Shown here in pieces: positions 2,897 through 19,285 of a DNA stretch of 21,344 bases; the first letter of the stretch is position 1; every line of letters begins with the position of its first letter. Source of the DNA: Chloroflexota bacterium (GTDB lineage Bacteria; Chloroflexota; Anaerolineae; UBA3071); contig JACNHM010000458.1 of NCBI GenBank assembly GCA_014383605.1, forward strand, positions 1 to 21,344, in the 5' to 3' direction. The notes under the pieces are model-generated. The model was not told where the DNA came from and made no database searches. It saw only the letters and a list, made by a program, of their open reading frames with translations. Both the position numbers and the translations under genes were made by a program.

Positions 2897-2937
2897 GTCA
2901 AACGTCATGCGTCAAGCGTCATACTCTTGCGTTTGAC
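2897..2937. repeat. Heptamer array GTCAWRC x4 with inverted copy, abutting the maoC stop
   Basis: Four tandem heptamers GTCAAAC, GTCATGC, GTCAAGC, GTCATAC occupy 2897-2924. GTTTGAC (2931-2937), the exact reverse complement of the first unit, follows. The array begins within four bases after the stop codon of the MaoC gene as transcribed on the minus strand. Confidence 0.8.
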
Positions 2938-2940
2938 GTT

Positions 2941-3369
2941 TTACTCTCCAGGTCGGTCCACCAGCAGCACAGCTTTTCCAGTAACAACCTGCTTCTCATC
3001 CTGGTTGTAACAATCCGTCTTGAGGGTGATGATGCGCTTATCAAGCTGCCACGAGACTACCTCAACTACGGCGGTGATGGTGTCGCCGATGAAAACCGGC
3101 GCCAGGAACTCGATCTGCTGGCTGAGGTAGATGGAACCGGGGCCGGGCAGCTTGTTGCCCAGCGCGGCCGAGATCAGCCCGCCCGTGAACATGCCGTGGG
3201 CCACCCGGCGACCGAAACGGCTCTGGCGGGCGTATTCGGCATCCACGTGGATGGGATTGAAGTCGCCGATCAGCCCGGCAAAGGTGGTCACGTCGGCCTC
3301 GGTGACCGTCTTGGAAAAACTGGCCCGCTCACCAATGCGGAAGTCGTTGCGAATGGAAACATCAGCCAT
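2941..3369 (-). CDS. MaoC-like (R)-specific enoyl-CoA hydratase
   Basis: The 142-residue single hot-dog-fold protein matches the hydratase-2 family (PhaJ/MaoC). The signature LIGDFNPIHVDAEYA places the catalytic Asp at 36 and His at 41, close to Asp31/His36 of Aeromonas PhaJ. HGMFTGGLISAALG and IEFLAPVFIGDTI are the other usual family segments. It should hydrate trans-2-enoyl-CoA to (R)-3-hydroxyacyl-CoA in the cytoplasm. The ATG has GGAG eight bases upstream. Together with the thiolase, ligases and SDR it fits a beta-oxidation-like or PHA-precursor role; the PHA synthase remnant upstream makes the second idea worth noting. Single-domain MaoC proteins can also act on aromatic or steroid side-chain intermediates. 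Confidence 0.88.
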   Translation of the reverse strand: MADVSIRNDFRIGERASFSKTVTEADVTTFAGLIGDFNPIHVDAEYARQSRFGRRVAHGMFTGGLISAALGNKLPGPGSIYLSQQIEFLAPVFIGDTITAVVEVVSWQLDKRIITLKTDCYNQDEKQVVTGKAVLLVDRPGE

Positions 3370-3386
3370 CGGTCAATCTCCATCAT

Positions 3387-3453
3387 TAGTGATCAGTGGA
3401 CAGTGGTCACTGGTCCGCTGGTCGCGGGTCTAACCACTGTTCACCGATCACTA
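3387..3453. repeat. Inverted heptamer array (CAGTGGW family) between maoC and hydrolase
   Basis: Left arm 3387-3406 and right arm 3434-3453 are inverted repeats matching at 18 of 20 positions, separated by 27 bases. The left side is built of heptamers CAGTGGA, CAGTGGT, CACTGGT. The right arm contains the TAG stop codon (3451-3453) of the upstream hydrolase. The same unit family recurs at 8753-8842. Confidence 0.8.
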
Positions 3454-4248
3454 CCCACTATGTTTGGCCAGGAAGCCCAAGATCAGCGAGTTGAAGACGC
3501 CCGGCCTCTCCCACAGCGCGGCGTGACCGGCGTGCGGCACGATGGCGTACTCGGCGTGGGGGATCTGGCGGGCGATGATCTCGGAATACTTGCGCGGTTT
3601 GATGAGATCATCCTCGCCCACAACGATCAGGGTCGGCGCCGCGATCTTGTGCAGGTCGGCGGTGACGTCCAGTTGACAGAAGCTGTGCAGCAACTCCAGA
3701 AAGGCGTCGAAATCCAGCGTCTTGTATCGCTCCCGCGCCGTGTCCAGGGCAGCCTGGTTGGCGGCGATCCAGGCTTCGGAGAAGGTCAACGGATAGACGA
3801 CCTGAAAGAGCATGTCCGGATCATGCGCTCGTGCGGCGGCGGCCCAGGTGTCTATCATGCCCTTGAGCAGTGGGTCCACCTGGCTCACTGCCGACGTCAC
3901 GATGAGTCTGCGCGTCCTTTTCGGATATTTGAGGGCAAAGACCATGCTGATCTCGGCCCCGTAGGATGTGCCGCCGATGTGGGCACTCTCGATGGACAGG
4001 ACGTCCAGCAGCGCGGCCAGATCGTCGGCGTGCATCTCCATGGAATAGGGCCCCGGTGGATGATCCGACTGCCACATGCCCCGGCAGTCGTAGAGCAACA
4101 GCCGATAGTGCTGCGACAACACCGGCGTCTGGAAGGCCCAACTAGCGGTACTCATCAGCACGCCGTTGGAGAGCACCAGCACGTCGGCGTCTTCCGGCCC
4201 GTGCAGCTCATAGTAAATCTGAATTCCATTGGCTTCGATCTCAGGCAT
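3451..4248 (-). CDS. Alpha/beta hydrolase, 3-oxoadipate enol-lactonase-like
   Basis: The product is 265 residues from the ATG at 4248, which has GGAGGG a few bases upstream. A longer frame exists, but its extra 37 codons are translated repeat DNA, so I reject them. The fold is visible as NGVLM (oxyanion region), LLYDCRGMWQSD, nucleophile elbow GTSYG (Ser95), GEDDLIKP (Asp214) and HAGHAALWERPG (His242). The pattern resembles PcaD-like lactonases and C-C hydrolases; the substrate is unknown. Its last residues and stop (SG then TAG) come from the repeat array at 3387-3453. The C-terminal segment LWERPGVFNSLILGFLAK also appears in the chimeric stub at 2451-2639. Confidence 0.85.
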   Translation of the reverse strand: MPEIEANGIQIYYELHGPEDADVLVLSNGVLMSTASWAFQTPVLSQHYRLLLYDCRGMWQSDHPPGPYSMEMHADDLAALLDVLSIESAHIGGTSYGAEISMVFALKYPKRTRRLIVTSAVSQVDPLLKGMIDTWAAAARAHDPDMLFQVVYPLTFSEAWIAANQAALDTARERYKTLDFDAFLELLHSFCQLDVTADLHKIAAPTLIVVGEDDLIKPRKYSEIIARQIPHAEYAIVPHAGHAALWERPGVFNSLILGFLAKHSG

Positions 4249-4263
4249 AATCCCTCCGGGGGT

Positions 4264-4303
4264 GGATATTGGGCAATCCCCAATACCCAATATCCAGTAC
4301 CTA
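4264..4303. repeat. Heptamer array TATTGGG and hairpin between DUF35 gene and hydrolase
   Basis: As transcribed (minus), units TACTGGA, TATTGGG, TATTGGG run directly on from the TAG stop (4303-4301) of the DUF35 gene. Arms 4263-4273 and 4286-4296 are a perfect 11-bp inverted repeat with a 12-base loop. The hairpin ends before the hydrolase SD and could influence its translation or act as an mRNA-processing site. Confidence 0.75.
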
Positions 4304-4717
4304 ATCCCTCTCAAACGCCAGGTACGTGCGCTTCTTCTCTCCCTCGCCCCGCTGGACAAAGACGACCCGCAGCGGCGTGCCGATGGTTATCTGCTCCGGC
4401 TGCATCGGGTCTACGCCCAGGATCTGGGCACTGATGGCCGGCCCCTCCTCCAACTGCACGATGCCGGTGCAGTAAGGGTTATCGCGGCCGTAGCCAGCCT
4501 CGATCATGGCCGTGGGCGCGATGTGGATCGTGGTGAAGGCTATGAGCTTGCCTTTTCCACTCATCTCTTCCCATGCCATCTCCCCGCCATGGCAGACAGG
4601 ACAGAGCGCACGCGGCGGCAGGTGCCGCGCCCCGCACGACTGGCAGCGAGAGCCCATGAGTCTGTTTTCGCCCAGGAACTCATAGAACGACGGCCCCGTG
4701 AAGTCTCTATCACTCAT
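4301..4717 (-). CDS. DUF35 (zinc-ribbon plus OB-fold) thiolase partner protein
   Basis: The 138-residue protein starts with a rubredoxin-like zinc ribbon, Cys25-X2-Cys28 and Cys39-X2-Cys42, followed by an OB-fold (about residues 50-138) with GKGKLIAFTTIH and PYCTGIVQLEEGPAISAQILG. This is the DUF35/ChsH2-like family. Known members form complexes with SCP2-type thiolases, aldolases or HMG-CoA synthase and help position acyl-CoA. The thiolase gene lies 21 bases upstream, consistent with a subunit pair. The first codons (MSDRD) and the preceding spacer lie in a GATAGA hexamer array, so the repeat contributes to the N-terminus. The substrate is not readable from sequence. Confidence 0.87.
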   Translation of the reverse strand: MSDRDFTGPSFYEFLGENRLMGSRCQSCGARHLPPRALCPVCHGGEMAWEEMSGKGKLIAFTTIHIAPTAMIEAGYGRDNPYCTGIVQLEEGPAISAQILGVDPMQPEQITIGTPLRVVFVQRGEGEKKRTYLAFERD

Positions 4718-4743
4718 CTCTATTTCTTCTCTCTATCTCTATC
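4704..4743. repeat. Hexamer array GATAGA spanning thiolase stop and DUF35 start
   Basis: On the minus strand two exact GATAGA units (4743-4732) include the TAG stop of the thiolase (4741-4739). Degenerate GAGAGA/AATAGA units follow, and another GATAGA lies inside the DUF35 gene (4711-4706). The same unit occurs at 13881-13905. Confidence 0.7.
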
Positions 4744-6001
4744 GGCGCTCGTAGATGTGCACAACACACGTCTGCCCCGTGCCGCCGACGTTGTGGGTCA
4801 GCGCCAGGTTGACGTCGCCGGGCACCTGGCGCGCACCGGCGCGGCCCCGCATCTGCTTCCAGACTTCGACCACCTGTCCCGCGCCGGAAGCGCCCACCGG
4901 ATGGCCCTTGGATTTAAGCCCGCCGGAGGTGTTGACGGGACGCGGCCCGCTGCGGGCCGTCAACCCTTCCTCGGCGGCCTTGCGACCCTCGCCGGGCGGG
5001 AAGAAGCCCAGGTCTTCGGTGGCGATGACCTCGGCGATGGTGAAGCAGTCGTGCACCTCGGCCACCTTGATGTCGGCGGGCGTCACGCCGGCCATCTCGT
5101 AAGCCTGCTGGCCGGCCAGCCGCGCCGCGCGCAGCGTGGTCAGATCAGGCCGGTCGTGCAGGGCCACGTCGCTGGCCTGGCCGGAGCCGATGACATAGAG
5201 AGGATCGTCGGTGAATGATGTGGCCAGCTCTTCGCTCACCAGCAGCAGGGCCGCTGCTCCGTCAGAGATAGGCGAGCAGTCGAACAAGCGCATGGGCCAG
5301 GCGATGATCGGGTTGGCGCGGTCGTCGTGGAGGAAGTCCATCTCGTCAGCCCAGGCGGGGAGGGGCCGCCCTTTGGCCTTGGCGCGGGCGACCTTGCTTT
5401 CCATGATCTGGCGGATGGTGGCGCCGAACTGAGCCTTCTCGTTGAGCGCGCCGTTCTCGTGGTTCTTGATGCCCACGCGCATGAACGTTTCCGGCGTAGC
5501 GCCGTAGCGGGCCATGTAGGCCGTGGCCATGGCGGCGTAGAAGCCAGGGAAGGTAAAACCGGCGGGGATCTCGTAGAGCACGTCGCCGGCGGTGGCCAGC
5601 GTGTCGGTGACCCGCTCGGTGGGCAGGTTGGTCATCTTCTCGATGCCGCCCACGAGAACGACGTCGTACAGGCCGGAGGCCACAGCGATGAGCCCCTGAC
5701 GCAGGGCCACGCCGCTGCTGGCGCAGGCGTCTTCCACGCGGGTGGCCGGGCGCGGCGCCAGCCCCACCCAGTCGGCCATGATGGGGGCCGTGTGTCCCTG
5801 CCCCTCGAACAGATCGCTGGAGTAGTTGCCGATATACAGCGCCTCGATGTCCTTGGGGTCGAGCCCTTTGTCCACGGACGAGCGCATCTCCTGAAAGGCT
5901 TCGACGAACAGGTCGCGCGTCGCCTTCTCCGGAAAACTGCCGAACTTGCTCATCCCGGCGCCGACGACGGCGACGCCGCGGCCGAGTTTGCGTGTGGTCG
6001 T
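4739..6001 (-). CDS. SCP2-type thiolase (acetyl-CoA C-acyltransferase family), apparent ACG start
   Basis: The product is a thiolase of the SCP2/SCPx class, forming or cleaving 3-oxoacyl-CoA. Numbered from the ACG at 6001 it has 420 residues. The nucleophilic Cys93 lies in VEDACASSG; later motifs are VHDCFTIAE, SKGHPVGASG (catalytic His) and the C-terminal NVGGTGQTC. The first ATG (5953) is too late. The codons before it read RGVAVVGAGMSKFG, the usual thiolase N-terminus, and that ATG lacks an SD. The in-frame TAA at 6007-6005 leaves only AAA and ACG, and GGGGAG lies seven bases before ACG. Either initiation is at ACG or an ATG was mutated or misread. The gene lies just downstream of acyl-CoA synthetase 1 and just upstream of its DUF35 partner. 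Confidence 0.88.
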   Translation of the reverse strand, partial: TTTRKLGRGVAVVGAGMSKFGSFPEKATRDLFVEAFQEMRSSVDKGLDPKDIEALYIGNYSSDLFEGQGHTAPIMADWVGLAPRPATRVEDACASSGVALRQGLIAVASGLYDVVLVGGIEKMTNLPTERVTDTLATAGDVLYEIPAGFTFPGFYAAMATAYMARYGATPETFMRVGIKNHENGALNEKAQFGATIRQIMESKVARAKAKGRPLPAWADEMDFLHDDRANPIIAWPMRLFDCSPISDGAAALLLVSEELATSFTDDPLYVIGSGQASDVALHDRPDLTTLRAARLAGQQAYEMAGVTPADIKVAEVHDCFTIAEVIATEDLGFFPPGEGRKAAEEGLTARSGPRPVNTSGGLKSKGHPVGASGAGQVVEVWKQMRGRAGARQVPGDVNLALTHNVGGTGQTCVVHIYERR

Positions 6002-6047
6002 TTTTTATCTCCCCAAGTGGTACATTGGAGCTGTTCCCCCGATTCCC

Positions 6048-6071
6048 AATCTACCAATTTACCAATCTACC
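6048..6071. repeat. Octamer array (AATCTACC)x3 at the end of acyl-CoA synthetase 1
   Basis: Three tandem octamers AATCTACC, AATTTACC, AATCTACC on the plus strand; on the coding strand they read GGTAGATT. The TAG of the gene-proximal unit (6069-6067) is the stop codon of acyl-CoA synthetase 1. The same octamer flanks the other end of that gene at 7634-7673. Confidence 0.82.
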
Positions 6072-7617
6072 GCCTTACAAACTGCTCGCGCAAATCACGC
6101 TTCAATATCTTGCCGGCCGCCGAAATGGGCAGTTCTGTCAGGAGCTCAACGCTCTTGGGCACCTTGTAGCGGGCCAGGTGGTCGCGCATGAAAGCGATGA
6201 GCTCCTCTTCCGTGGTTGTCATGTCCGGTTTGAGCACAACACAGGCCTTGCCTACCTCGCCCCACTTCTCGTGCGGCACGCCGATGACAGCGCACATGTG
6301 CACGACGGGGTGCTTGTAGAGCACGGCCTCGATCTCCGCCGGATAGACGTTCTCGCCGCCGGAGATGAACATGTCCTTCTTGCGGTCCACGACGTAGAAG
6401 TACCACTCATCGTCATGGTATACCATGTCGCCCGTATGGAACCAGCCCTCATCATCCACAGCCACGGCGCTGGCCTCGGGGTTATTCCAATAGCCGGAAC
6501 AGCCACTGGTCCCCTTGAGCACCAACTCGCCCACCTCGTGGGGACCAAGGGGGTTGTTGTCGTCGTCCACGACGCGCACGTCCACGAAGAAGTTGGGGCG
6601 GCCAATGCTGCCCGCTTTGCGGATGGCGTCCTCGGCGGGCAGGGCAAAGAGGCCCGGCCCATACTCGGTCATGCCAAAGCCTTGCTTGAAGCGCACGCGC
6701 TTCTCGCGGGCGTACTTTTCTACCAAGGGCACCGGCAGCGACGCGCCGCCGCTGGTGCAGAAGCGCAGGCTGCTCAGGTCGGCTGTTTCCCAGTTGGGGG
6801 CCTGCGTCATCATCTGGTACATCGTCGGCACGCCGCCAAAGACGGTCACCCGCTCCCGTTCGATCAGTTCCAGCACCTGTTGCGGGTTGAACTGACGAGT
6901 CAGGATGCTGGTGTTGCCGAAGACGACCTGCGAGGACATGTAGGCAAACAGCCCGCCGGCGTGGAACAGTGGGAAGACGCAGAGGTAGATGTCGTCGTGG
7001 GTCAGGTCATGAATGACGGTGTTGAGGACGTTCCAGCAGATCTGGCGGTGGCTGATCATGGCCCCCTTGGGCAGGCCGGTGGTGCCGCCGGTGAAGATCA
7101 GACAGGCGATGTCGTCCTTCTCCAGCGTCTCGCAGGTCACAGCCGTGTCCGGCGACGATTGCCACGTCGTATCGTAGTGCAGGCTGCCAGGGATGCCCTC
7201 GCCCTCGATGTGCAAGTAGTGGCTGACAGCGTGTGGCGTGTGGCGTGTGGCGTTCTCTACTTCGGCGACGATGCTCTTGAAATCATCCGAATAGATCAAC
7301 GCTTTGGGCTGGGTGTCCTCGATCAGCGCCGCCAGCTCGCGCCAGTGCAGCCGCCAGTTCAGCGCCGTGTGAATGGCTCCCAACTTGCCGCAGGCGTAGA
7401 GCAGGTCCAGGTGCTCGATGCCGTCGCGGGCCAGGATGGCTACCCGGTCGCCCTTCTCCGCGCCGACCTCGTGCCGCAGCCAGTTGGCCAGCCGGTTGAC
7501 CCGCCGGTTCCACTGGCGGTAGGTCAGCCGCAGCTCCGGATCTTTGCCCACGTCAATGATGGCCAGTTTGTCAGGGCTGTAGATTTCTCGTCGTCCAAGA
7601 TAGTCTCCGATGTACAT
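6067..7617 (-). CDS. Acyl-CoA synthetase 1 (AMP-forming, ANL superfamily)
   Basis: The 516-residue ligase activates a carboxylic acid to its CoA thioester through an acyl-adenylate. The phosphate-binding loop is at 174-190 (IFTGGTTGLPKGAMISH). The A5-like motif is FGMTEYG, the A7/A8 region is GWFHTGDMVY and VVDRKKDMFISGGENVYP, and the C-terminal GKILKRDLREQF carries the catalytic Lys. Length is normal for medium/long-chain or aromatic acyl-CoA ligases; the acid cannot be named. GGAGGTGAACC precedes the ATG. Residues 122-130 are encoded by a 7-bp tandem array (7229-7253) inside the gene. Both ends are flanked by GGTAGATT octamers, and the stop codon lies in one of them. Confidence 0.92.
   Translation of the reverse strand: MYIGDYLGRREIYSPDKLAIIDVGKDPELRLTYRQWNRRVNRLANWLRHEVGAEKGDRVAILARDGIEHLDLLYACGKLGAIHTALNWRLHWRELAALIEDTQPKALIYSDDFKSIVAEVENATRHTPHAVSHYLHIEGEGIPGSLHYDTTWQSSPDTAVTCETLEKDDIACLIFTGGTTGLPKGAMISHRQICWNVLNTVIHDLTHDDIYLCVFPLFHAGGLFAYMSSQVVFGNTSILTRQFNPQQVLELIERERVTVFGGVPTMYQMMTQAPNWETADLSSLRFCTSGGASLPVPLVEKYAREKRVRFKQGFGMTEYGPGLFALPAEDAIRKAGSIGRPNFFVDVRVVDDDNNPLGPHEVGELVLKGTSGCSGYWNNPEASAVAVDDEGWFHTGDMVYHDDEWYFYVVDRKKDMFISGGENVYPAEIEAVLYKHPVVHMCAVIGVPHEKWGEVGKACVVLKPDMTTTEEELIAFMRDHLARYKVPKSVELLTELPISAAGKILKRDLREQFVRR
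7229..7253. repeat. In-gene heptamer array GCGTGTG x3.5
   Basis: Three exact GCGTGTG units plus GCGT lie inside the acyl-CoA synthetase 1 coding sequence (residues about 122-130, N-terminal domain). Three units equal 21 bases, so the frame is kept. Confidence 0.85.
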
Positions 7618-7633
7618 GGTTCACCTCCATTTT

Positions 7634-7720
7634 GGTAGATTGGTAGATCGGTACCTTGGTAGATTGGTGAATCGTGTCCCCATCTACCAGTTTCCCAATT
7701 TCCCAGTTTCCCAATTTACC
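7634..7720. repeat. Inverted octamer arrays between KAS III and acyl-CoA synthetase 1
   Basis: Left array: five octamers at 7634-7673 (GGTAGATT, GGTAGATC, GGTACCTT, GGTAGATT, GGTGAATC). Right array: CTACCAGT, TTCCCAAT, TTCCCAGT, TTCCCAAT, TTACC at 7684-7720, broadly the reverse complement. The TAA stop of the KAS III gene (7718-7716) lies inside the right array, and the left array ends just before the acyl-CoA synthetase SD. The pair could fold into a long imperfect stem. Confidence 0.85.
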
Positions 7721-8741
7721 ATCCCGCTGTCCACCGCCACACGGCTGCCGCCATGGCCAGCCCGCCGCCGCTGGCGCAGAAGACGACGTTGTCTCCTGGC
7801 TGGGGCGCAGGAGGCTGTCCGTGCTTGGCGCGGCCGCCGTGCAAGGCGTCGTCCAGCGCCGCCGGGATGCAAGCTGAGCCCAGATAGCCCCACTTGTCCA
7901 TGATCCAGTGGGTCTTGCTCATCGGCTGGCCCAGGTTGGCCATGACGAATTCGATGGTGCGCAGGTTGAGCTGGGTGAACACGTAGAAGTCAATGTCGTC
8001 CACCGTCAGCTCTGCCTTGCGCACGACCTCCCGTATCAGCGGCGGCCAGTTGTCGCTGTTGAAGGTAGACGGGAACTTCTTGACGAACTGCACGCGCGGC
8101 TTGCCCAACTCGGCCACCACCTGCGGCGTGGCCGGGCGGTAGGTACCGCCGGTGTAGATGCCCAGCGCGTCGTGATACTCGCCGCGGGCCAGCAGCTTGC
8201 CGCTGAGGTAGCCCGGCTCGTCGCCCGCGCTGACGATGGCCACGCCGGCGCCGTCGGCGAAGAGCGTGCAGGTGTACTTATCCGTCCAGTCAATGAACTT
8301 GGTCATGCCGTAGCCGCCGGCGACCAGGATGTGCTGGTAGTCAACGTCCGTGGCGACGTAGCGGGCGGCCATGTCCAGCGCGGTGACCCAGGCGGCGCAG
8401 GCGCAGTTGACGTCGTAGGTGCCGGCGTTGGCCGCGCCCAGCTTGGCCTGCACCGCCGAGGCGGTAGCCGGGCTCAGGTAGTCGGGTGTATCGGTGGCGA
8501 CGAGGATCAGGTCGAGGTCGGCGGCGGTGAGGCCCGCCCGCTCCAACGCCTGGCGGGCGGCGACAACGACCATGTCCGACGTGGTCTCGTCGTCGGCCAT
8601 GACGTGGCGCTCGTGGATGCCCACGTTCTCCACCAACCAATCGCCGACGTTCTCGCCCAGCATCTCATTCAAGTCGTTGTTGGTGATGACTCGCTCAGGG
8701 ATGTAGCGTCCTGTAGACAGGATGTGTGCGTATCTGGTCAT
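7716..8741 (-). CDS. FabH-like 3-oxoacyl-ACP synthase III homologue with altered catalytic triad
   Basis: The protein is 341 residues from the ATG at 8741 (MTRYAHILSTGRYIPE). An upstream frame extension is repeat DNA and is not used. The nucleophile Cys115 is present in DVNCACAAW, aligned with the AAACAGF of FabH. The catalytic His of FabH (VPHQANLRI) is replaced by Thr256 in VFTQLNLRT, and the Asn of YGNTSAAS by Tyr286 in KWGYLGSAC. A Cys-only site argues against ordinary decarboxylative condensation and for acyl transfer, thioester binding or a structural role. It precedes acyl-CoA synthetase 1, thiolase and DUF35. The family call is firm; the function is open. Confidence 0.87.
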   Translation of the reverse strand: MTRYAHILSTGRYIPERVITNNDLNEMLGENVGDWLVENVGIHERHVMADDETTSDMVVVAARQALERAGLTAADLDLILVATDTPDYLSPATASAVQAKLGAANAGTYDVNCACAAWVTALDMAARYVATDVDYQHILVAGGYGMTKFIDWTDKYTCTLFADGAGVAIVSAGDEPGYLSGKLLARGEYHDALGIYTGGTYRPATPQVVAELGKPRVQFVKKFPSTFNSDNWPPLIREVVRKAELTVDDIDFYVFTQLNLRTIEFVMANLGQPMSKTHWIMDKWGYLGSACIPAALDDALHGGRAKHGQPPAPQPGDNVVFCASGGGLAMAAAVWRWTAGW

Positions 8742-8752
8742 TGTTGCTCTCT

Positions 8753-8842
8753 TAGTGGGCAGTGAGTAGTGGACAGTGGGTAGCGCGTGGCTGGACTGAT
8801 CATTGACCACTATCCACTGATCACCATCAACTATCCACTGAT
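8753..8842. repeat. Heptamer array TAGTGGG/CAGTGGA with inverted partner
   Basis: Left side: TAGTGGG, CAGTGAG, TAGTGGA, CAGTGGG, TAG at 8753-8783. Right side: CTATCCACTGAT occurs twice, at 8810-8821 and 8831-8842 (period 21), in inverted orientation. The right end contains the TAG stop (8833-8831) of the frameshifted hydrolase. The unit is shared with 3387-3453. Confidence 0.82.
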
Positions 8843-9716
8843 TTCGAAGTTCACGGATTTCGCTGCGAAAAAGGCCCGTACGGTGGGCCAGAAGATGTCG
8901 CCCCGTTCCATGTAGGTCATGTGCCCACTTTCCGGCAGCATGATCTGCCGGCTGTTGGGCAAGATGTCCAGGAGCTTCCTCTGCTGCCAGGGCGGGAGCG
9001 CCCGGTCTTGCTCGCCGGTGAAGATCAAGGTGGGCGTCATGATGTGGCGGTAGGCATCGGGATCGTGGTCAATGTTCTCGAAGAAAGGGTTTTGCGCTTC
9101 TGTCAGGCGGATCAGACAGTGCTTCCTGTCGTGGTAGCGATCGTAGAACTTGGCACGCCCTTGCTCCATTCTGTCGCCGTAAAGCCGGCGCGCAAAACTC
9201 TCGCCAAACATCTTCTCGTACATGTAGTGGGTGTAGATCTCGAAGGCTGGCTCTGGCGCCCGGTAGAACATGAGCGACAGGTCTTGATACATCTGAAACA
9301 GGATCTCTCGCGTCAATATGATGCCGGACAGCGTGAGAGTGTGCAAGCGATCCTGGTACAGCCGGCCCAGATCGGCGGCGATAAACCCTCCGTACGAAAC
9401 GCCCACCGGATGAATGCGCTCAATGGACAATTCATCCATGATCTGGATCAGGTAGTCGCAAAACCTGGGTGTAGTACGGCTCGTCCTCCTGCGATGATTG
9501 GCCCTGCCCGAAGTAGTCGTAGAGCAGCACGTCGTACTGGGGATAGACATAGGACACACTGCGATACCATGACCGGGTGAGCATGGCCACGCCGTTCAGG
9601 AGGACGACGACTTCCCGCTCTCCTGTTCCGAAGTACTCCCAGTAGATGCGTCTGGTTCCGTTTTCCACATGGACGAAGCCTGTCTTGTCGGGAGCGACTT
9701 GAGTTGTATCAGCCAT
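8831..9716 (-). pseudogene. Frameshifted alpha/beta hydrolase
   Basis: The N-terminal part (from the ATG at 9716, MADTTQVAPDK) contains VVVLLNGVAM and LLYDYFGQGQSS. The C-terminal part, in another frame, contains the nucleophile elbow GVSYGG, FTGEQDRALPP (acid) and ESGHMTYMERGD (His). Neither frame alone encodes the hydrolase. Homology places the switch near 9455-9475, around ACCCAGGTTTTGC, where deleting one G would restore PYYTQ-FCDYLIQIMDEL. The span of 886 bases is one more than a multiple of three. It may be a true inactivation or an assembly error. A GTG at 9806 would extend the N-terminus, but the ATG fits family length. The final SG and TAG come from the repeat array. Confidence 0.8.
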
Positions 9717-9809
9717 GTCCGTTCTCAGGAACTTCTCCTGATCAGAGCCTTCTGAAAGCGGTCGGCTTGTGCGCTTGATGGGCGAGGAGTAGCCCGCAAA
9801 CCACACCCC

Positions 9810-10595
9810 TCAAGTCTGTTCAGGGTGCGCTATCCAGCTTTCGATAGCTCTCTTCACTGACCGTGCCATCTCAACGGAGTAGTCCGCCGAGAACTTCCGG
9901 GCATAGACATGCTGGCCGATGTTGGTTGCGCCATCCACATAGCGTTGCGGCCTCGTGGGCTCGAACATCTTGTCCAACGCTGGCTTGTCCAGCCTCTCAT
10001 ACCTGTTTACGAAGTGTATGTTCTCTTGGGGGAATCGGGAAGTGAGTTTTCTGGCAGCCGCTTTCGCCGTCGGGTAGCCCAGGCAGAGAAGTGTGATCGG
10101 AAAAGCATATTGCGGCAGTCCCAGAAGCTCCTTGTGATATTCGTAGTTCTCCATGATGTCGCCGATGTAGCAGGAACCCAGGCCCAGCGATTCGGCGGCG
10201 ATCACGGCAGTTTGGGCAGCAATCAAGGCATCACAACAGGCCAGCAGCAGGTCTCCTTCGCCCGGATAACGAAGCTTTTTCCCTTGCGCCTCACAGTATG
10301 CTTCCACACCTGAGGCGATGAAGAAGTCAAACCATCGTTGGTAGTCGGCAAGGAAGAGCAGAACCAACGGCGCTTTGGCGATGAAGGGTTGGTTGTCACA
10401 GGACTGGGCAAGCTTCTCCTTGATTGTCTGGTCTGCGATCTCCACGATAGAATACAGCATCATGTTCCCAGCAGTGGGAGCACGCATAGCCGCGCCTATG
10501 ATGACATCCACAATGTCTCTGTCAATTGGCTTGTCTTGAAAGGCTCGCACAGACTTGCGATTGTGGATTACCCTTATCGTTTCGTTCACCGGCAT
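9810..10595 (-). CDS. NfsA-like nitroreductase / FMN reductase family protein
   Basis: The product of about 260 residues belongs to the FMN-dependent nitroreductase family. Near the N-terminus HNRKSVRAF provides the FMN phosphate-binding Arg/Ser, and AAMRAPTAGNMM, AAESLGLGSCYIGDI and LLCLGYP follow NfsA/FRP-type order. It should be a cytoplasmic NAD(P)H-dependent flavoprotein. The start is ambiguous: GGAGG directly touches the ATG at 10595, while the GTG two codons later (10589) is six bases from GGAGG and better placed. A longer upstream frame overlaps another gene and is rejected. Base composition looks lower in GC than the thiolase/ligase region. Neighbouring genes on both sides are frameshifted, suggesting a distinct, decaying segment. 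Confidence 0.85.
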   Translation of the reverse strand: MPVNETIRVIHNRKSVRAFQDKPIDRDIVDVIIGAAMRAPTAGNMMLYSIVEIADQTIKEKLAQSCDNQPFIAKAPLVLLFLADYQRWFDFFIASGVEAYCEAQGKKLRYPGEGDLLLACCDALIAAQTAVIAAESLGLGSCYIGDIMENYEYHKELLGLPQYAFPITLLCLGYPTAKAAARKLTSRFPQENIHFVNRYERLDKPALDKMFEPTRPQRYVDGATNIGQHVYARKFSADYSVEMARSVKRAIESWIAHPEQT

Positions 10596-10633
10596 CCTCC
10601 AGAGGCGCACGCAGCATGGTGAGCGTTTCCTAT

Positions 10634-11018
10634 CTACCCAGGCATTGAGCTGAAAAGCTGTTCGGTTTCCTCTTGACCCAACTCGAAATACTCCTTCTGT
10701 GCCCGCGCATCTTTGAGTGAGACAGTCATGCTCTCCAGATTTTGGGGTTTCAGAATGTGCAACGGCTTGCGATGGTAGGTCTTGCCTGCAACCTCTATGG
10801 ATGGCTTGTCCAACGTCTCCAGGAGTTGATTGATGAAGGCAGCCTGAGAGAGAATGGCTGTATTGGGCAAACTCCACTGGATGTCACTGACCAGGAGGTT
10901 CATCTCTATGCTGGTCGAGAGCATGACCAGGGACAGTTTACAGAAACACCAGCAGCGCGGCCAGCGCCACCCCACCTTTTGCGACCTGATGCAACCAATC
11001 AGAGATCCGTTTCCCCAT
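10634..11018 (-). pseudogene. Small membrane-anchored protein of unknown family, apparently frameshifted
   Basis: I do not recognise this gene. An ATG at 11018 with GGAG seven bases upstream gives MGKRISDWLHQVAKGG followed by a hydrophobic run (VALAALLVFL), like a signal anchor, and then a TAA at 10940-10938. One frame over, a reading frame continues without interruption to 10634 with LVSDIQWSLP, LETLDKPSIEVAGKTYH and an acidic end (ELGQEETEQLF). Joining the two near 10940-10960 would give about 128 residues. Alternatively the second frame starts alone at 10975, without a good SD. The composition is relatively AT-rich for the window. Confidence 0.45.
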
Positions 11019-11167
11019 GAGCACGCTCCACAGATGGACAGACGTGGGCCCCTGGCGCGGCGGTTGGCCGAAGGCTAGCCAGCAGACATAGTCTACAGCG
11101 CCGTTGGCACAGACGCGGGGCGTCCGCTCTCCCGTGGTCTCCCCTGACCCCGATGCATGACACCCAG

Positions 11168-12235
11168 CTACTCGCCGCGCAGATGGGCGTGGAAGACTTT
11201 GTTGAACTCCTCTGGCTTCTCAAGGTATGCCAGGTGGCCAGCGTCTTCGATCACGACTTCTTTGTAGGAACCGCCGGCGGCGGCGTATTTCTCCAGCACG
11301 GCGCGGGTCTGGCCGAGCATGGGCTGCGGGGGATAGGTCTCCTCGCCAGGCCAGCCGGGTAAGAGTCCTACTCTGCCCAGGTAGCCAGGATCGGCGGCCG
11401 CCGTGTCTGATACCACCAGGTCGTGGCTGCCGCGCACCCACAATACGGGGACCTGGAGCCGGCCATCGTAGATTTCGCTGACGTCGCTGGCGTATTTGGG
11501 CGATAGAGCGTTGGTCGCGCCCCAGACACCTGGCGCCATGTGCGGCCAGTTCGGAGACTGCGCCGAGTCCCCTGGCACGTCTTGCGCCCCGATGTGCGTT
11601 GACAGCAGCGACGAGAGCAGCTCTTCCTCTCTCGGCGGAATGAAGGGCGGCTTGACCAGCAGGAAGCGAATGGCCATCCGTGGCGAGACCTGGCTTTCCA
11701 TGCTGCGGTCGCCGTTCTTCATCCGTTGAATCAGCTCAGGGTTCGACAGGCCGCCACCGGAACCGGCAAAGTCGGGGGTGCTCGGTGTGCCGTCCACGTC
11801 CTTGGTAGCACCAAAGCCGAAAGGTGAGCCGGGGTTGACCACCGTAACAGTCAAGAAACGCTCAGGGTAGTCCCGCATCATCCGCCAGACGACCACGCCG
11901 CCCAGCGAGATGCCGACGATGTGGGCTTTCTCGATGCCCAGATGATCGAGCAAGGCCGCGGCGTCGTCGGCCAGATCGCCCATGCCGCGGGTAGCATCAA
12001 TCTTTTTCCCCAGATCGGCATCGCCGAAGCCGCGCTGGTCCGGCGCGATGCCCCGATAGCCTGCGGGCAGGGTGACCATTGTCTCTTCCCACCAGGTCGC
12101 CGACGAGACGTTGCCGTGCAAAAAGAGCACAGGGATGCCATCATCGGGTCCGGTGAAGAGCACTCGCGTGGTGATGCGATTGGTCGTGATGGTTTTGGCA
12201 GTGACACCGTCCATTGTGGGGATACTCACGTTCAT
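11168..12235 (-). CDS. Alpha/beta hydrolase, haloalkane dehalogenase/epoxide hydrolase-like
   Basis: The 355-residue protein has the full alpha/beta-hydrolase pattern: VLFLHGNVSS (oxyanion), APDQRGFGDAD, nucleophile elbow GISLGG (Ser110), LWVRGSHDLVVSD (acid) and EDAGHLAYLEKPEEF (His). The substrate is unknown; a Ser nucleophile excludes a true dehalogenase. The start is ambiguous: AAGGAGG touches the ATG at 12235, whereas GTG at codon 3 (12229) is six bases from GGAGG, the same arrangement as the nitroreductase gene. The first 95 bases lie inside the 3' end of acyl-CoA synthetase 2 in another frame, so translation of the two may be coupled. Confidence 0.85.
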   Translation of the reverse strand: MNVSIPTMDGVTAKTITTNRITTRVLFTGPDDGIPVLFLHGNVSSATWWEETMVTLPAGYRGIAPDQRGFGDADLGKKIDATRGMGDLADDAAALLDHLGIEKAHIVGISLGGVVVWRMMRDYPERFLTVTVVNPGSPFGFGATKDVDGTPSTPDFAGSGGGLSNPELIQRMKNGDRSMESQVSPRMAIRFLLVKPPFIPPREEELLSSLLSTHIGAQDVPGDSAQSPNWPHMAPGVWGATNALSPKYASDVSEIYDGRLQVPVLWVRGSHDLVVSDTAAADPGYLGRVGLLPGWPGEETYPPQPMLGQTRAVLEKYAAAGGSYKEVVIEDAGHLAYLEKPEEFNKVFHAHLRGE

Positions 12236-13802
12236 CCTCCTTCTCCCATTCTGCAACATATCGCTGACGTAGTTCCGCTTTCTGCACCTTGCCGTAAGAA
12301 GAATAAGGCAGTGCATCAGTGAAAACGACCTTCTTGGGGATCTTGTAGCGGGCCAGGTGCTCGCCGCAGAAGGCCTTCAGTTCCTCCTCGCTGGCCGATT
12401 GCCCCTCTTCCAACACGACGACCATCAGGCCCACCTCGCCCCAAGTCTCGTGCGGCATGCCGATGAGCGCCGCCTCGCGCACGGCGGGATGCTCGCGGAA
12501 GACTGCTTCCACCTCGGCGGCGTAGATGTTCTCTCCGCCGCTTTTGATCATGTCCTTGTAGCGCCCAATAATGTAGTAGAAGCCGTCCTCGTCCCTGCGG
12601 GCCATGTCGCCGGTGCGGAACCACGGCCCGCCGGGCCCATCGAGCAGTGACCTGGCGCTGGCTTGGGGATTGCGCCAGTAGCCGGTGCACACGTGCGGCC
12701 CGGCGATGAGCAGTTCGCCCTCCTGGCTGACCGGCACGTCCTGGCCGGTACCGGGGTTGACGAGCCGCATCTTGCTGTGGAAGATCGGCTTGCCCACCGA
12801 ACCGAGTTTGGTGACCGATTCCTCGTCGGTCATGCTGAAGCAGTTGGCGCCCACCTCGGTCAGGCCGTAGCCCTGGCGAAAGACGCCACCTTTCGCTGCC
12901 AGCCAGGCCTCGACGAGATCCACGGGCAGCGGCGCGCCGCCGCTGATGAAAAAGCGTACGTGGCGAAAATCGGCCTCGGGGAAGCTGGGATAGCTCATAA
13001 ACATGCGGAAAATCGTCGGCACGCCGAGGACTACGGTGCACTTCTCGTTAACAATGGTCTGAAAGATGGCCTCCAGGCCAAAGGCGCGGAAGAGCACGAT
13101 GCGCCCGCCGACGTAAAAGAGCGGCGTCAGGAAGGCGAACAACCCACCGGCGTGAAAGAGCGGCGTGAACACGGGCGAGACGTCGTTTTCGGTCAGCCCC
13201 CAGCTAACGACGGTGTTGATAGCATTCCACAGCACCTGGCGGTGGGGGATCATGGCTCCCTTGGGCCGGCCGGTGGTGCCGGAGGTGTAGAGGATAGCGT
13301 AGGTATCGTCGGCACGCAGCGGTGGCCGCTCCGGCTCAGCGTCGGAAGCAGTGGCCAGCTCCTCCTCGTAGCACAGCGCACCCTCGATCTGCGCACTTTC
13401 CAGGCTCACGGTCAGAAACCCGTTTTCGCCCAGAAAACGGGTTCCTTGGCGCACTTCGGCCAGCACGTCCTCAAACTCCGGGCCACAGATCAGCACCTTG
13501 AGAGTGCAATCGTTGACGATGTAGATCACCTCGCGAGCCGCCAGTCGCCAGTTCAGCGGAGCGAGAATGGCGCCGATCTTGGCCAGGCCGTAGAACAGGT
13601 CAATGTAGGCCACGCTGTTGTGAGCCAGGATCGAGACGCGATCACCCTTCTGCACGCCCAGTTCCCGCATCCAGTTGGCCAGGCGATTGGCTCGACTGTT
13701 CAGCTCAGCATAGGTGTAGCGCCGACCGGTTGGCAATTCCACCAATGCCTCCCGGTCAGGCGTCAGATACGCTCGTTTGCTAAGCAGGTCGCCAGCATGC
13801 AT
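12141..13802 (-). CDS. Acyl-CoA synthetase 2 (AMP-forming, ANL superfamily)
   Basis: The 553-residue paralogue of acyl-CoA synthetase 1 has ILYTSGTTGRPKGAMIPH (phosphate loop), YGLTEVG, FRTGDMARRDEDG, GRYKDMIKSGGENIY and the C-terminal SSYGKVQKAELRQRY with the catalytic Lys. GGAGGG lies eight bases before the ATG. After the normal end (about WEKEDERE) the frame runs on for some 27 residues of unlike composition (NHHDQSHHHAS). This region overlaps the next hydrolase, suggesting that an original stop was lost. A perfect 11-bp stem-loop (13417-13443) lies inside the coding sequence at the same protein position as the repeat in synthetase 1. The acid activated is unknown. Confidence 0.9.
   Translation of the reverse strand: MHAGDLLSKRAYLTPDREALVELPTGRRYTYAELNSRANRLANWMRELGVQKGDRVSILAHNSVAYIDLFYGLAKIGAILAPLNWRLAAREVIYIVNDCTLKVLICGPEFEDVLAEVRQGTRFLGENGFLTVSLESAQIEGALCYEEELATASDAEPERPPLRADDTYAILYTSGTTGRPKGAMIPHRQVLWNAINTVVSWGLTENDVSPVFTPLFHAGGLFAFLTPLFYVGGRIVLFRAFGLEAIFQTIVNEKCTVVLGVPTIFRMFMSYPSFPEADFRHVRFFISGGAPLPVDLVEAWLAAKGGVFRQGYGLTEVGANCFSMTDEESVTKLGSVGKPIFHSKMRLVNPGTGQDVPVSQEGELLIAGPHVCTGYWRNPQASARSLLDGPGGPWFRTGDMARRDEDGFYYIIGRYKDMIKSGGENIYAAEVEAVFREHPAVREAALIGMPHETWGEVGLMVVVLEEGQSASEEELKAFCGEHLARYKIPKKVVFTDALPYSSYGKVQKAELRQRYVAEWEKEDEREYPHNGRCHCQNHHDQSHHHASALHRTR
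13417..13443. repeat. Perfect 11-bp inverted repeat inside acyl-CoA synthetase 2
   Basis: AACCCGTTTTC and GAAAACGGGTT flank the five-base loop GCCCA. It encodes residues about 120-129 of the ligase, aligned without gaps to residues 122-130 of synthetase 1, where the heptamer array lies. Confidence 0.85.
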
Positions 13803-13880
13803 GCCACTGTCCCTCCATTCCCGTTATTGCGATGGGTTGTTTTGCGCTCTGGGGCGGGGAAATGGAAATAGTGAAGGCTC

Positions 13881-13905
13881 TCTATCTCCCCTCTCTATCT
13901 CTATC
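13881..13905. repeat. Hexamer array TCTATC after the SDR gene
   Basis: TCTATC occurs at 13881-13886, 13894-13899 and 13900-13905 with TCTC-rich filler. On the coding strand this is GATAGA, the unit seen at the thiolase/DUF35 junction. It begins six bases after the stop of the SDR gene. Confidence 0.7.
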
Positions 13906-13911
13906 TGCTGT

Positions 13912-14676
13912 TCACGTGCCGACGACGATGCCTCCATCCACTCGCAACACCACTCCCGAGATAAAGCTGGCCTCGTCTGACGCCAGGAAGAGGTAGGCGT
14001 TGGCGATATCCCGCACGTGCCCCAATCGGCCCAGCGGTGTGCGAGCCCTCATGCCCTCCAGAATCTTCTCCGGCATCTGCATCACCATCTCGGTGGCTGT
14101 GAAGCCAGGGGCCACGGCGTTGACGCGGATACCGTAGCGGCCCAGTTCGCGGGCCCACACCTTGGTCATGCCGATCACACCGGCTTTGGTGGCCACGTAG
14201 TTGGTCTGACCGAAGTTGCCATCCAGGCCGACGATGGAGCTGGCATTGAGGATCACGCCGCTGCCCTGCCTGATCATGACCGGGGCCACGGCCTGCGTGC
14301 AGTTGAACACGCCCTTGAGGTTGACGGCGATCACCAGGTCGAAGTCGGCCTCGGGCATCTGCTTGACCAACTCGCCGTCTTTGACCCTGACCAGCAGGTT
14401 GTCGCGCAGCACGCCAGCGTTGTTGACCAGGATGTCCACACGGCCATGCTTATCCACCACGTCGTCCACCCACCCCTGCACTGCCTGCCGGTCGGTGACG
14501 TCCACTCGATAGAAAGTGGCCCCGGAGCCGAGCTCCTGAACCGCGGCTTCGCCGGCCTCCTGGTTCACGTCGCAGATGACCACTTGGGCCCCTTCCTCGA
14601 TGAAACGTTGGGCCGTTGCCTTGCCAATACCCGCCGCTCCGCCCGTGATGAGGGCGACCTTGTCTTTCAAGCGCAT
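13912..14676 (-). CDS. fabG: FabG-like short-chain dehydrogenase/reductase
   Basis: The 254-residue classical SDR is of the 3-oxoacyl-(ACP or CoA) reductase type. The nucleotide motif TGGAAGIG is at 11-18, NNAG at 85-88, and the catalytic tetrad is Asn119, Ser147, Tyr160, Lys164 (YVATK). PGFTATEM and the ending DGGIVVGT are typical of FabG/PhaB-like enzymes. It probably interconverts 3-oxoacyl and (R)-3-hydroxyacyl thioesters with NAD(P)H in the cytoplasm. It is the first gene of the minus-strand cluster and lies upstream of acyl-CoA synthetase 2. Whether it serves fatty acid synthesis, PHA precursor supply or degradation cannot be read from the sequence; context favours a catabolic CoA pathway. 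Confidence 0.88.
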
Positions 14677-14712
14677 AGTTGTACTCTCTCCCCTATCTGA
14701 TCTATTCTGTGA

Positions 14713-14779
14713 GGACGAAAGACCAAGGACGAAGGACGAGCCGCCAGACTTTCCGTCGTTCGTCTTTCGTCATTCGTCC
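14713..14779. repeat. Inverted heptamer arrays GGACGAA / CGTCNTT
   Basis: Left: GGACGAA, AGACCAA, GGACGAA, GGACGAG (14713-14740). Right: CGTCGTT, CGTCTTT, CGTCATT, CGTCC (14754-14779). The arms are reverse complements at about 22 of 26 positions with a 13-base spacer. They lie between the PHA synthase remnant and the SDR gene and could form a long hairpin in RNA from either strand. Confidence 0.85.
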
Positions 14780-14829
14780 GCCTCCACTTGACCTGGACTG
14801 TATCCTGATCGTCGCCAGCGCTGCCCGCC

Positions 14830-15084
14830 TCAGCGGGAGCGTGGCCCCAGCCACTCCACGATCTCCGGCCACAGCCTGTAGCGCGCCCGACCGCTGGCCA
14901 TGATGCCGACGTGCGTGGAGGGGATGACGCGCAACTCCTTGTCCTCGCTGGACGCCAGGTCCATGATGCTCTCCGCCTGCGACTGGGCCACGATGTGATC
15001 GTACTCGGCGACGATGTTGAGCAATGAGGCGCGTCTGGTCATTCTGGACACCATAGGTTGGCGGCTTCGCAAGGCTGGAAACAC
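14830..15084 (-). pseudogene. phaC: C-terminal remnant of a class III PHA synthase (PhaC)
   Basis: About 65 residues match the end of PhaC: LLNIVAEYDHIV (catalytic Asp region), then LASSEDKELRVIP, STHVGIMASGRAR (His region, usually GHIG or GHVG) and LWPEIVEWL. The nucleophile Cys domain and roughly the first 290 residues are absent. The frame upstream opens within or just after the terminator of the RRM gene, from a GTG without an SD. It therefore appears to be a stump left by a deletion or rearrangement whose breakpoint is near 15050-15085. Full-length relatives polymerise (R)-3-hydroxyacyl-CoA. Neighbouring FabG and MaoC genes are the enzyme types that supply that substrate. A different alpha/beta-hydrolase C-terminus is possible but fits less well. 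Confidence 0.68.
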
Positions 15085-15116
15085 AAAAGCGAGGCGCCAG
15101 ATGTCTGACGCCTCGC
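15085..15116 (-). terminator. Intrinsic terminator of the cold-shock transcript
   Basis: Stem GCGAGGCG..CGCCTCGC extends to 13 paired positions with one mismatch (15089-15116) and is followed on the minus strand by TTTT (15088-15085). It lies about 30 bases after the stop of the RRM protein gene. Confidence 0.85.
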
Positions 15117-15144
15117 TCCGTTGTTCTTTCGCTAGCGCTGGAAT

Positions 15145-15474
15145 CTACCAGCGATCGCGACGGCCGCCACCGCCGCCACCGCCGCCACCGCGGCGGTCAT
15201 AGCCACCTGATCGTTCTGTTCGCTCTCGGGGCGGCCGGGCCTCCGCCACGGTGATCTCTCGATCATCCAGCGAGGTGCCATTGAACGCGCTGATGGCCTT
15301 CTCGGCCCCTTCGACTGTTTCCATCTCCACGAAGCCAAACCCTTTCGAGCGGCCTGTGTAGCGGTCGCGGATCACCTCAGCCGACAGCACAGTGCCCTGG
15401 CCGCTGAACAGCTCGCGCAGTCCATCGTCCGTTGTGTCGTAGGACAGGCTGCCGACGTATAGTTTCTTATTCAT
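15145..15474 (-). CDS. RRM-type glycine-rich RNA-binding protein
   Basis: The 109-residue protein has one RNA recognition motif: RNP2 LYVGSL at 5-10 and RNP1 KGFGFVEM at 44-51. A basic tail with a run of nine glycines and RRDRW at the end follows. This is the architecture of bacterial Rbp proteins, best known as cold-induced RNA chaperones in cyanobacteria. The tail is encoded by a simple GGN-rich repeat. The gene follows a CspA-type gene by about 80 bases on the same strand, with only a small hairpin between and a strong terminator after it. The two are probably cotranscribed as a cold-shock unit (inference). The SD (GAGGAA) is rather far from the ATG. Confidence 0.9.
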   Translation of the reverse strand: MNKKLYVGSLSYDTTDDGLRELFSGQGTVLSAEVIRDRYTGRSKGFGFVEMETVEGAEKAISAFNGTSLDDREITVAEARPPRERTERSGGYDRRGGGGGGGGGRRDRW

Positions 15475-15904: not shown

Positions 15905-15933
15905 ACTATAGCACGGATAGAGATGCTTGTCAA
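15905..15933 (-). promoter_or_regulatory. Sigma70-type promoter of the csp-RRM transcript
   Basis: Minus strand: TTGACA (15933-15928), 17-base spacer, TATAGT (15910-15905), with an extended -10 (TGC before TATAGT). Predicted transcription starts near 15898, giving a leader of about 130 bases. Confidence 0.88.
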
Positions 15934-19204: not shown

Positions 19205-19233
19205 ATTATAACGCAAAACGGGCGGGCTGACAA
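19205..19233 (-). promoter_or_regulatory. Promoter of the MalT/BTAD regulator
   Basis: Minus strand: TTGTCA (19233-19228), 17-base spacer, TATAAT (19210-19205). The ATG begins only nine bases after the -10, so the transcript should start at or within a few bases of the start codon. Confidence 0.82.
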
Positions 19234-19244
19234 CCGGACAACTC

Positions 19245-19263
19245 TCGCCAAATCCTTTGGCGA
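19245..19263. promoter_or_regulatory. Perfect palindrome, candidate operator between divergent promoters
   Basis: TCGCCAAA-TCC-TTTGGCGA is an exact 8+8 inverted repeat with a three-base centre. It overlaps the -35 of the plus-strand promoter and lies 11 bases upstream of the -35 of the regulator promoter, a suitable site for control of both genes. Confidence 0.65.
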
Positions 19264-19285
19264 ATCGGCAGGAGTAGGATATAAT
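19257..19285 (+). promoter_or_regulatory. Promoter of the PqqB-like/sixA operon
   Basis: TTGGCG (19257-19262), 17-base spacer, TATAAT (19280-19285). This gives a leader of about 60 bases before the ATG at 19353. Confidence 0.75.

Follow-up and report, generated by a model that had tools for sequence, protein, structure and literature searches.

The short tandemly repeated repetitive (STRR) sequences of filamentous cyanobacteria are degenerate 7-bp units that lie in tandem in many intergenic spacers. REP and REPIN palindromes, which go with RAYT transposases, form dispersed intergenic hairpins, and the palindromic elements of Rickettsia are repeats of fixed family sequence that are kept in frame inside proteins. 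We describe here arrays of short tandem units in a 21,344-nucleotide stretch of an uncultivated Chloroflexota genome (contig JACNHM010000458.1 of assembly GCA_014383605.1; the whole stretch is called the window), in which many spacers of a minus-strand cluster of fatty-acid and CoA-type genes at 2941-14676 are composed largely of them. The genome is probably of Anaerolineae type, to judge by the nearest relatives of the window thiolase, which are no more than 82% identical to it. The arrays are dispersed short hairpins of 7- or 8-bp tandem units, of STRR type, which lie for the most part between co-directional genes and in some cases in frame within a gene. Periods 7 and 8 are in excess, the arms pair as inverted copies, the G-rich arm precedes the C-rich arm in nearly all inverted pairs, units turn over fast at orthologous sites, and the arms co-vary.

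The original prediction, made from the letters of the window, likened the arrays to STRR heptamers. Judged against the general description of those elements this is right in kind, as both have degenerate 7-bp tandem units in many dispersed intergenic copies; the likeness is one of description. By the same description, the Chloroflexota arrays appear to differ in having dozens of unit families per genome, units of both 7 and 8 bp, frequent inverted pairs of nearly fixed G-then-C order, and in-frame copies in genes. They resemble the Rickettsia elements in forming in-frame palindromic repeats, but are built of changing tandem units instead.

For the G-rich heptamers GGGAATC and GGGGA(C/T)T of Xanthomonas and Nostoc, the available part of the published account places the repeats between co-directional genes, with under-representation at divergent ones, and puts the G strand near stop codons and the C strand near start codons; it also notes an inverted pair, and variation in length and sequence between relatives (PMC4692102). 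That part deals with one unit type, with G-tracts for quadruplexes, whereas many units coexist here (PMC4692102). Most units of the window contain no run of three or more G, and among its unit families only the TATTGGG consensus holds GGG. The order of the G and C arms is not itself new, because the Xanthomonas and Nostoc heptamers show the same layout in what is available of that account (PMC4692102); what is added is that the order holds across many units, in pairs of unlike arrays and within genes. The TAACTGA heptamers of Beggiatoaceae, Cyanobacteria and Bacteroidetes also form 7-bp tandem sets, mostly intergenic and near start codons. In the available part of that paper, unlike here, a single fixed unit is described, mostly in one orientation, with one inverted case in 170 sets (PMC4679880). 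Distinctive of the Chloroflexota arrays are thus many units per genome, hairpins of near-fixed order, in-place replacement between close relatives, and arrays in frame. We found no account of such repeats in Chloroflexota in the literature searched, whose coverage excluded most subscription journals, and the string 'Chloroflex' is absent from the accessible text of two tree-of-life surveys searched for it.

Periodic arrays in the spacers

Arrays in the window were sought with Tandem Repeats Finder (TRF) and by direct reading of the sequences. Both bear out the tandem arrays that had been claimed at nine spacer sites, TRF returning an array at every one, and different unit families do alternate along the one cluster as had been said. 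TRF arrays of period 7 start at 2903, 3388, 4274, 14712 and 14749, those of period 8 at 6046, 7632 and 7687, and those of period 6 at 4704 and 13879; the array starting at 8753 has period 14, which is 7 doubled.

For a strict call we required a TRF score of at least 36 at periods 6-8, and took dinucleotide shuffles of the spacers as the null. Strict arrays are present in 5 of the 19 window spacers, compared with a mean of 0.05 and a maximum of 1 in 20 shuffles. Three of the weaker arrays fall below the threshold, namely 2903 (score 33), 3388 (35) and 13879 (33). Self-matching of the window spacers is raised at lag 7 (z = 7.5) and lag 8 (z = 3.6). Shuffled spacers lack this periodicity, in the lag test and in the array test. 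The shuffler left none of 95 window-spacer shuffles unchanged (0 of 1825 spacer shuffles overall) and kept all dinucleotide counts.

We extended the analysis to G001 and G003, two relatives rich in arrays, taking 20 stretches from each; gene borders in these are approximate, coming from a simple gene-calling script. Strict arrays occur in 29 of 195 spacers in G001 and in 51 of 151 in G003, with 0.05 and 0 in shuffles. A second detector of spacer segments (mismatch -1, threshold 10, settings chosen against shuffles) gave 3, 42, 7 and 4 segments at periods 6, 7, 8 and 9 in G001; 2, 67, 26 and 1 in G003; and 1, 6, 2 and 0 in the window, with at most 1 in shuffles. The remaining periods from 4 to 12 gave 0 to 6 segments in the two relatives. 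The excess is at period 7 and then, smaller, at period 8. Thus of the 6-, 7- and 8-bp units originally proposed, those of 7 and 8 bp are enriched in the relatives and those of 6 bp are not. The six-base GATAGA arrays of the window are not clearly members of the 7/8-bp class, because the two relatives show a clear excess at periods 7 and 8 alone.

The features of the window are as follows, the spacer arrays being given without strand.

2941-14676, minus strand: co-directional, array-bearing cluster encoding MaoC, alpha/beta hydrolases, an OB-fold/zinc-ribbon protein, a thiolase, two acyl-CoA synthetases, KAS III, a nitroreductase and an SDR
2899-2940: GTCAWRC array, period 7, with a short inverted arm, adjoining the MaoC stop (2941); found by TRF, reading and folding; its hairpin has a C-richer left arm and a G-richer right arm, the reverse of the usual order
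3386-3456: inverted pair of CAGTGGW arrays, period 7, G-rich left and C-rich right, overlapping the alpha/beta hydrolase stop codon (3451); found by TRF and by folding (z -6.5 and -6.8)
4259-4305: TATTGGG/CCCAATA array, period 7, a hairpin between the OB-fold stop (4301) and the hydrolase start
4704-4743: GATAGA array, period 6, a single non-folding arm covering the start codon of the OB-fold gene (4717)
6046-6071: GGTAGATT array (gene sense), period 8, a single arm overlapping the acyl-CoA synthetase stop codon (6067)
7229-7253, minus strand: in-frame coding array GCGTGTG (CACACGC on the coding strand) within the acyl-CoA synthetase gene at 6067-7617
7632-7722: inverted array pair of period 8 with units GGTAGATT and CCAATTTC, left arm G-rich and right arm C-rich, between the KAS III stop (7716) and the acyl-CoA synthetase start (7617)
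8753-8842: inverted pair of CAGTGGW arrays, period 7/14/21, left arm G-rich and right arm C-rich, between a hydrolase stop (8831) and the KAS III start
13879-13906: GATAGA array, period 6, a single non-folding arm between the SDR stop (13912) and the second acyl-CoA synthetase
14712-14778: inverted pair of GGACGAA arrays, period 7, left arm G-rich and right arm C-rich, upstream of the SDR gene

Arrays were said to be missing from the region of the cold-shock, regulator and plus-strand genes, and TRF indeed finds none of period 6-8 beyond 14778. The TRF arrays beyond that point (15163, 17720 and 19021) have period 3, 9 or 11 and lie within reading frames; the nine-base GCCGCCACC repeat at 15163-15191, in the gene for an RRM protein, codes for a glycine-rich tail. 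Good matches to sigma-70-like promoters were seen ahead of the cold-shock gene (15905-15933) and in the divergent spacer that precedes the plus-strand genes (19205-19285). The spacer at 2455-2940 holds a remnant of the C-terminus of the neighboring alpha/beta hydrolase at 2472-2531 on the minus strand (20 residues, 80% identical), which looks as if it were left over from an old duplication or recombination.

Inverted arms, their order and their place between genes

Six of the nine window sites consist of an array with an inverted one after it, and their folding exceeds that of shuffles, z being between -1.8 and -6.8 over the two strands (stretches 2887-2945, 3376-3456, 4256-4306, 7628-7724, 8750-8845 and 14708-14782). 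There was no folding beyond shuffles at the GATAGA sites 4700-4745 and 13875-13912, nor at 6040-6075 (z -0.3 to +1.4), so that the foldable inverted copies of the original prediction hold for six sites and not for the two GATAGA arrays or the array at 6048. Four of five control spacers gave z from -1.7 to +0.5. The fifth, at 15043-15144, gave -3.6 on the minus strand, because it contains a terminator-like hairpin.

In the window five hairpins run from a G-rich to a C-rich arm and one is reversed. The pair at 7632-7722 has 14 G and 3 C in its left arm and 2 G and 14 C in its right arm. The relatives follow the same order. Adjacent TRF arrays have inverse units (with at most two changes) in 26 of 43 pairs in G003 and 10 of 14 in G001, compared with 3.5 and 1.6 on random re-pairing. 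The inverted pairs of G001 and G003 together are G-then-C in 33 cases and C-then-G in none, with 4 ambiguous; reading the other strand gives 33, 0 and 5. Among the inverted pairs of TRF arrays the G-rich arm is first in 33 and second in 1 (2 ambiguous), and among pairs of unlike units in the two genomes in 8 and 1 (2 ambiguous). Twenty-four stretches, including the window and stretches of G001 and a further relative, G072, gave 8 against 1 with 3 ambiguous, and a wider, overlapping set of 13 genomes and the window gave 43 against 1 with 5 ambiguous. Broken down by context, that wider set gives 31 against 1 at co-directional junctions, 3 against 0 at convergent and 1 against 0 at divergent ones, 5 against 0 inside coding sequence, and 3 against 0 among unplaced pairs. 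The TRF lists had given an impression that the left arm is longer than the right, and this was gone with the second detector (14 against 14 in G003).

The arrays of the window span the interval between one gene's stop codon, overlapping that codon in several cases, and a point shortly before the start of the next gene. Over the co-directional spacers of 12 genomes, window included, the first array lies over the stop codon or no more than 5 nt from it in 64 of the 130 that bear arrays, and a median of 17 nt separates the end of the last array from the next start. Arrays are present at 33 of 143 co-directional junctions in G001 and 52 of 122 in G003, at 2 of 29 and 4 of 15 divergent junctions, and at 3 of 23 and 5 of 13 convergent junctions; together this is 85 of 265 co-directional spacers against 14 of 80 divergent or convergent ones. 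Some arrays in these two genomes fall inside called coding sequence. Arrays that stand singly in co-directional spacers divide by composition. The G-rich ones are all in the 5' half (26 against 0), while the C-rich ones are divided 15 and 11 between the 5' and 3' halves, with no restriction to the 3' half. The G strand thus lies near stop codons, and the C strand lies near start codons in part. We also considered a role for the arrays as a barrier of stop codons in all frames, since units of 7 or 8 bp could put a stop triplet into every frame downstream of a gene. In the window a stop triplet occurs in four of the five arrays that come first in their spacers, but over all sets it occurs in 31 of 93, compared with 39.0 after shuffling of letters, and the idea was dropped.

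Turnover of units at orthologous sites

The in-gene array at 7229-7253, the order of the arms, the turnover at orthologous sites and the co-variation of the arms go beyond the original prediction. We compared the in-gene site across 34 distinct orthologous stretches, at least 62% identical and including the window. A strong array of period 7 is present in six of them, with six different units, and 17 to 20 of 21 positions match at lag 7; three more are weak (14 of 21). The length of the loop, 34 residues, is kept in four of the six strong cases; in L082 it is three residues shorter, and in L153, where the match contains one in-frame stop, it is 18 longer. L012 and L171 carry another insert at this loop, with the common string TGAGCGAAGCCGAAG. 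Because that insert shares the position of the arrays, the loop seems to be a general landing place for repeats.

Junctions between genes behave in a similar manner. No conserved, non-repetitive spacer was seen in relatives at the orthologous junctions examined; they have either array-free spacers of varied length, commonly short ones, or arrays built on other units. At the junction of KAS III with the synthetase, arrays of period 7 or 8 occur in 5 of 17 loci (two from one genome), all with different units, and the 12 array-free junctions comprise 8 of 3 to 49 bp and 4 of 84 to 200 bp. At the thiolase/OB-fold junction, where the window has an array of period 6, arrays of period 7 or 8 occur in 4 of 14 loci and again all differ. 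In L156 and L158, whose genes are 89% identical, different arrays lie upstream of the same gene.

A closer comparison is provided by G001 and G072, whose stretches are mostly 87-95% identical. Forty-two array sites of G001 in seven stretches were taken, and 18 have an orthologue with usable flanks. In five of these the unit is shared, in eight both genomes have arrays but the units differ throughout, and at the remaining five G072 gave no detected array. The arrays have a median identity of 0.78 and the outer flanks one of 0.95, and the arrays are lower in 16 of 17 sites (Wilcoxon p = 3e-5), a count that leaves out the site at L123 15644. Four successive units inside an 844-residue gene differ by the same C/A, being GGCGATT in one genome and GGAGATT in the other, and the length is unchanged. 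Both arms differ in a spacer hairpin that has GGAGATT/AATCTCC in one of the two and GGAGACT/AGTCTCC in the other. Counting repeated identical changes by their spacing gives peaks at lags 7 and 14 (22 and 13 pairs), with no more than 8 at other lags. The arms of one orthologous hairpin, at L006 19450-19517 and in L223, look exchanged between close genomes, as if the hairpin had been inverted.

Co-variation of the arms was examined at 13 of the 18 sites by following the pairs of the fold predicted for G001, with 33 gapped pairs set aside. Double compensatory changes number 7, compared with a mean of 1.6 and a maximum of 6 in 1000 deals.

Origin and range of the arrays

On balance, we think the arrays are probably made by slippage of one unit, copying of one arm from the other by fold-back, and trading of units between arrays, with selection deciding where they stay. 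A short quasi-repeat or an existing array would let the replicating strand slip by one unit, so amplifying it. The nascent strand could then fold back and copy one arm from the other, placing an identical unit in both. Arrays of the same genome might exchange units by template switching or gene conversion, giving replacement in place, sometimes with no change in length. Selection would mainly set the places at which arrays are tolerated, which between genes run from the stop codon up to shortly before the ribosome-binding site and in genes are only in frame and in loops, and any effect of an RNA hairpin on the operon message would be secondary. If the process begins at G-rich 3' ends, the G-first order would be a consequence. 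In favor of this account are the excess at periods 7 and 8, the pairing and order of the arms, the dispersed matches, the turnover at orthologous sites, the compensatory changes and the differing units at the in-gene site. The original prediction offered a local repeat-generating process or selection for foldable spacers. The idea of a process, of selection or of both carries over, but the process is not local to the cluster, as arrays occur throughout the sampled stretches of some relatives and also in coding sequence.

Several observations weigh against this explanation. In G072, 336 of 379 fold pairs are kept, which is within the null (mean 329.9, maximum 338), and 43 are broken. The excess of identical changes at lags 7, 14 and 21 is modest under a strict null (39 compared with a mean of 28.5 and a maximum of 42 in 500 runs). 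The hairpin at 2897 is reversed, with 5 G and 9 C followed by 4 G and 2 C. Twenty-four of the 42 array sites in G001 have no usable orthologue, and several of the 18 are short and near background; the site at L123 15644, counted as array-free in G072, keeps its hairpin there in a 100% match that the alignment missed. Since a site is periodic in either version, at most sites a replacement born independently is indistinguishable from concerted change. We identified neither an enzyme nor a replication intermediate, and the presence of the Y1 transposase and of RVT_1 is unlinked to array richness. Finally, the co-variation of the arms is equally expected under selection for an RNA hairpin.

Such selection is the main rival, and it is a real if lesser possibility. 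The arrays would be intercistronic elements of the mRNA that protect 3' ends or insulate stop from start, and the fold would be conserved and not the sequence. The co-varying arms, the preference for co-directional junctions, the first arrays that adjoin stop codons and the short distance from the last array to the next start are all as it would have them. However, three of the nine window arrays do not fold, arrays and G-then-C pairs are also found inside coding sequence, the orthologous junctions of relatives are often short and array-free, and selection for folding alone needs no tandem units of 7 or 8 bp.

It is unlikely that each array was born locally from a chance quasi-repeat, with no exchange between loci and with shared units due to convergence. 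Relatives do have different units at one junction, the conserved codons beside the in-gene site hold a 7-bp quasi-repeat when read by eye, and the units of the window, G088 and G072 hardly recur within the genome beyond their recurrence in others. Yet in G041 the units recur in 13 of 13 arrays, compared with 0.26 for arrays of other genomes, and more than twenty places in G072 match a whole hairpin of G001 (L122 14792-14853). Matches to the array at L006 13310 lie on 11 other contigs. Of 188 canonical units, 32 are common to at least two of 14 genome groups, compared with 9.5 and a maximum of 18 after letter shuffling, an excess that convergence could also explain. Dialects of units within a genome are clear in G041, G030, G078, G002, G007 and G004 (5 to 13 arrays each); G001, G003, G072, G088 and the window show them weakly or not at all. 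Recurrence of units together with the dispersed matches speaks for the trading of units among arrays, or for a limited repertoire of favored units, rather than for wholly independent birth.

A further candidate is a mobile palindrome like REP or REPIN, carried by a Y1 (RAYT) transposase or a reverse transcriptase. This is disfavored and seems very improbable, although such palindromes too are dispersed intergenic hairpins. Here the repeats are tandem units, no fixed palindrome, sequence or tag was seen, and units change in place; nor does the distribution of transposases match. Draft genomes were searched, in which an absence is not certain. Y1_Tnp had matches in 5 of 8, with none in the array-rich G072 and G017 and three in the array-poor G006. 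RVT_1 had matches in 12 of 21, with none in the array-rich G041, G007 and G088 and one or two in the array-poor G005, G055 and G076.

That the arrays are intrinsic transcription terminators is less probable still. The hairpins do follow stop codons, but terminator-like sites in the scanned stretch of the window number 10, compared with 9.5 expected. The strongest, at 15086-15119 on the minus strand with 15 pairs, is downstream of the RRM protein gene and away from the arrays, and the sole site within an array, at 14728-14745, is weak, with 5 pairs. Moreover, arrays are no commoner at convergent junctions (8 of 36) than at co-directional ones. Chance or low complexity is refuted. Some individual arrays of the window do score close to the threshold or under it, but shuffling these spacers yields almost none.

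Returning to slippage, fold-back and unit trading, we tentatively suggest a bolder form, for which we would claim rather little confidence. Some Chloroflexota may write repeats actively, extending G-strand 3' ends in steps of 7 or 8 bases, folding back and copying, and trading or overwriting units even within reading frames. Extension from a G-strand 3' end, as in head-to-head telomere fusions, is suggested by the G-first order, including that of the unlike pairs and of the pairs in genes. If this were true, gene junctions and some protein loops would be continually rewritten.

The work on cyanobacteria, Xanthomonas and Beggiatoa has left the questions of why the unit has seven bases, how heptamers spread, and whether they have any function. 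The Chloroflexota arrays are diverse and change fast between flanks that are about 95% identical, so that replacement of units, co-variation of arms and in-frame replacement can be traced site by site. That the G-first order is common to unrelated phyla points toward a general mechanism, one open to testing. As a caution, the spacers and some protein loops of such genomes should not be taken as conserved regulatory sequence.

The range of the arrays was surveyed in 60 first-contig stretches from across the phylum, of which 12 under 7 kb were dropped, leaving 48 usable. Three of these (L276, L278 and L260) have at least three non-coding arrays per 20 kb and 32 have none; L260 is doubtful, being GC-rich with 3.5 arrays in its own shuffles. 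The arrays are sporadic across Chloroflexota and not a trait of the phylum. The perfect run (GGTAGATT)3GG was found without mismatch in 0 of 201 sampled genomes, including G003, whose copies are degenerate; the perfect run is thus not widespread, and the count says nothing on degenerate arrays.

Further repeats were seen in passing. L203 (G017) has a very long heptamer array, with about 26 copies of GCCATTT, and its shuffled count, over shuffles that changed the sequence, is 0.8. Dispersed repeats of about 80-90 bp, of a length unrelated to the heptad arrays, have many copies in G072 (L123 1554-1796, L119 2239-2446 and L006 8950-9038). In AT-rich loci of Lokiarchaeota (L065, L068 and L071) arrays of period 7 or 8 exceed shuffles, with 12 against 2.2 in L065, and the Lokiarchaeota locus L073 has 9 arrays against 6.2.

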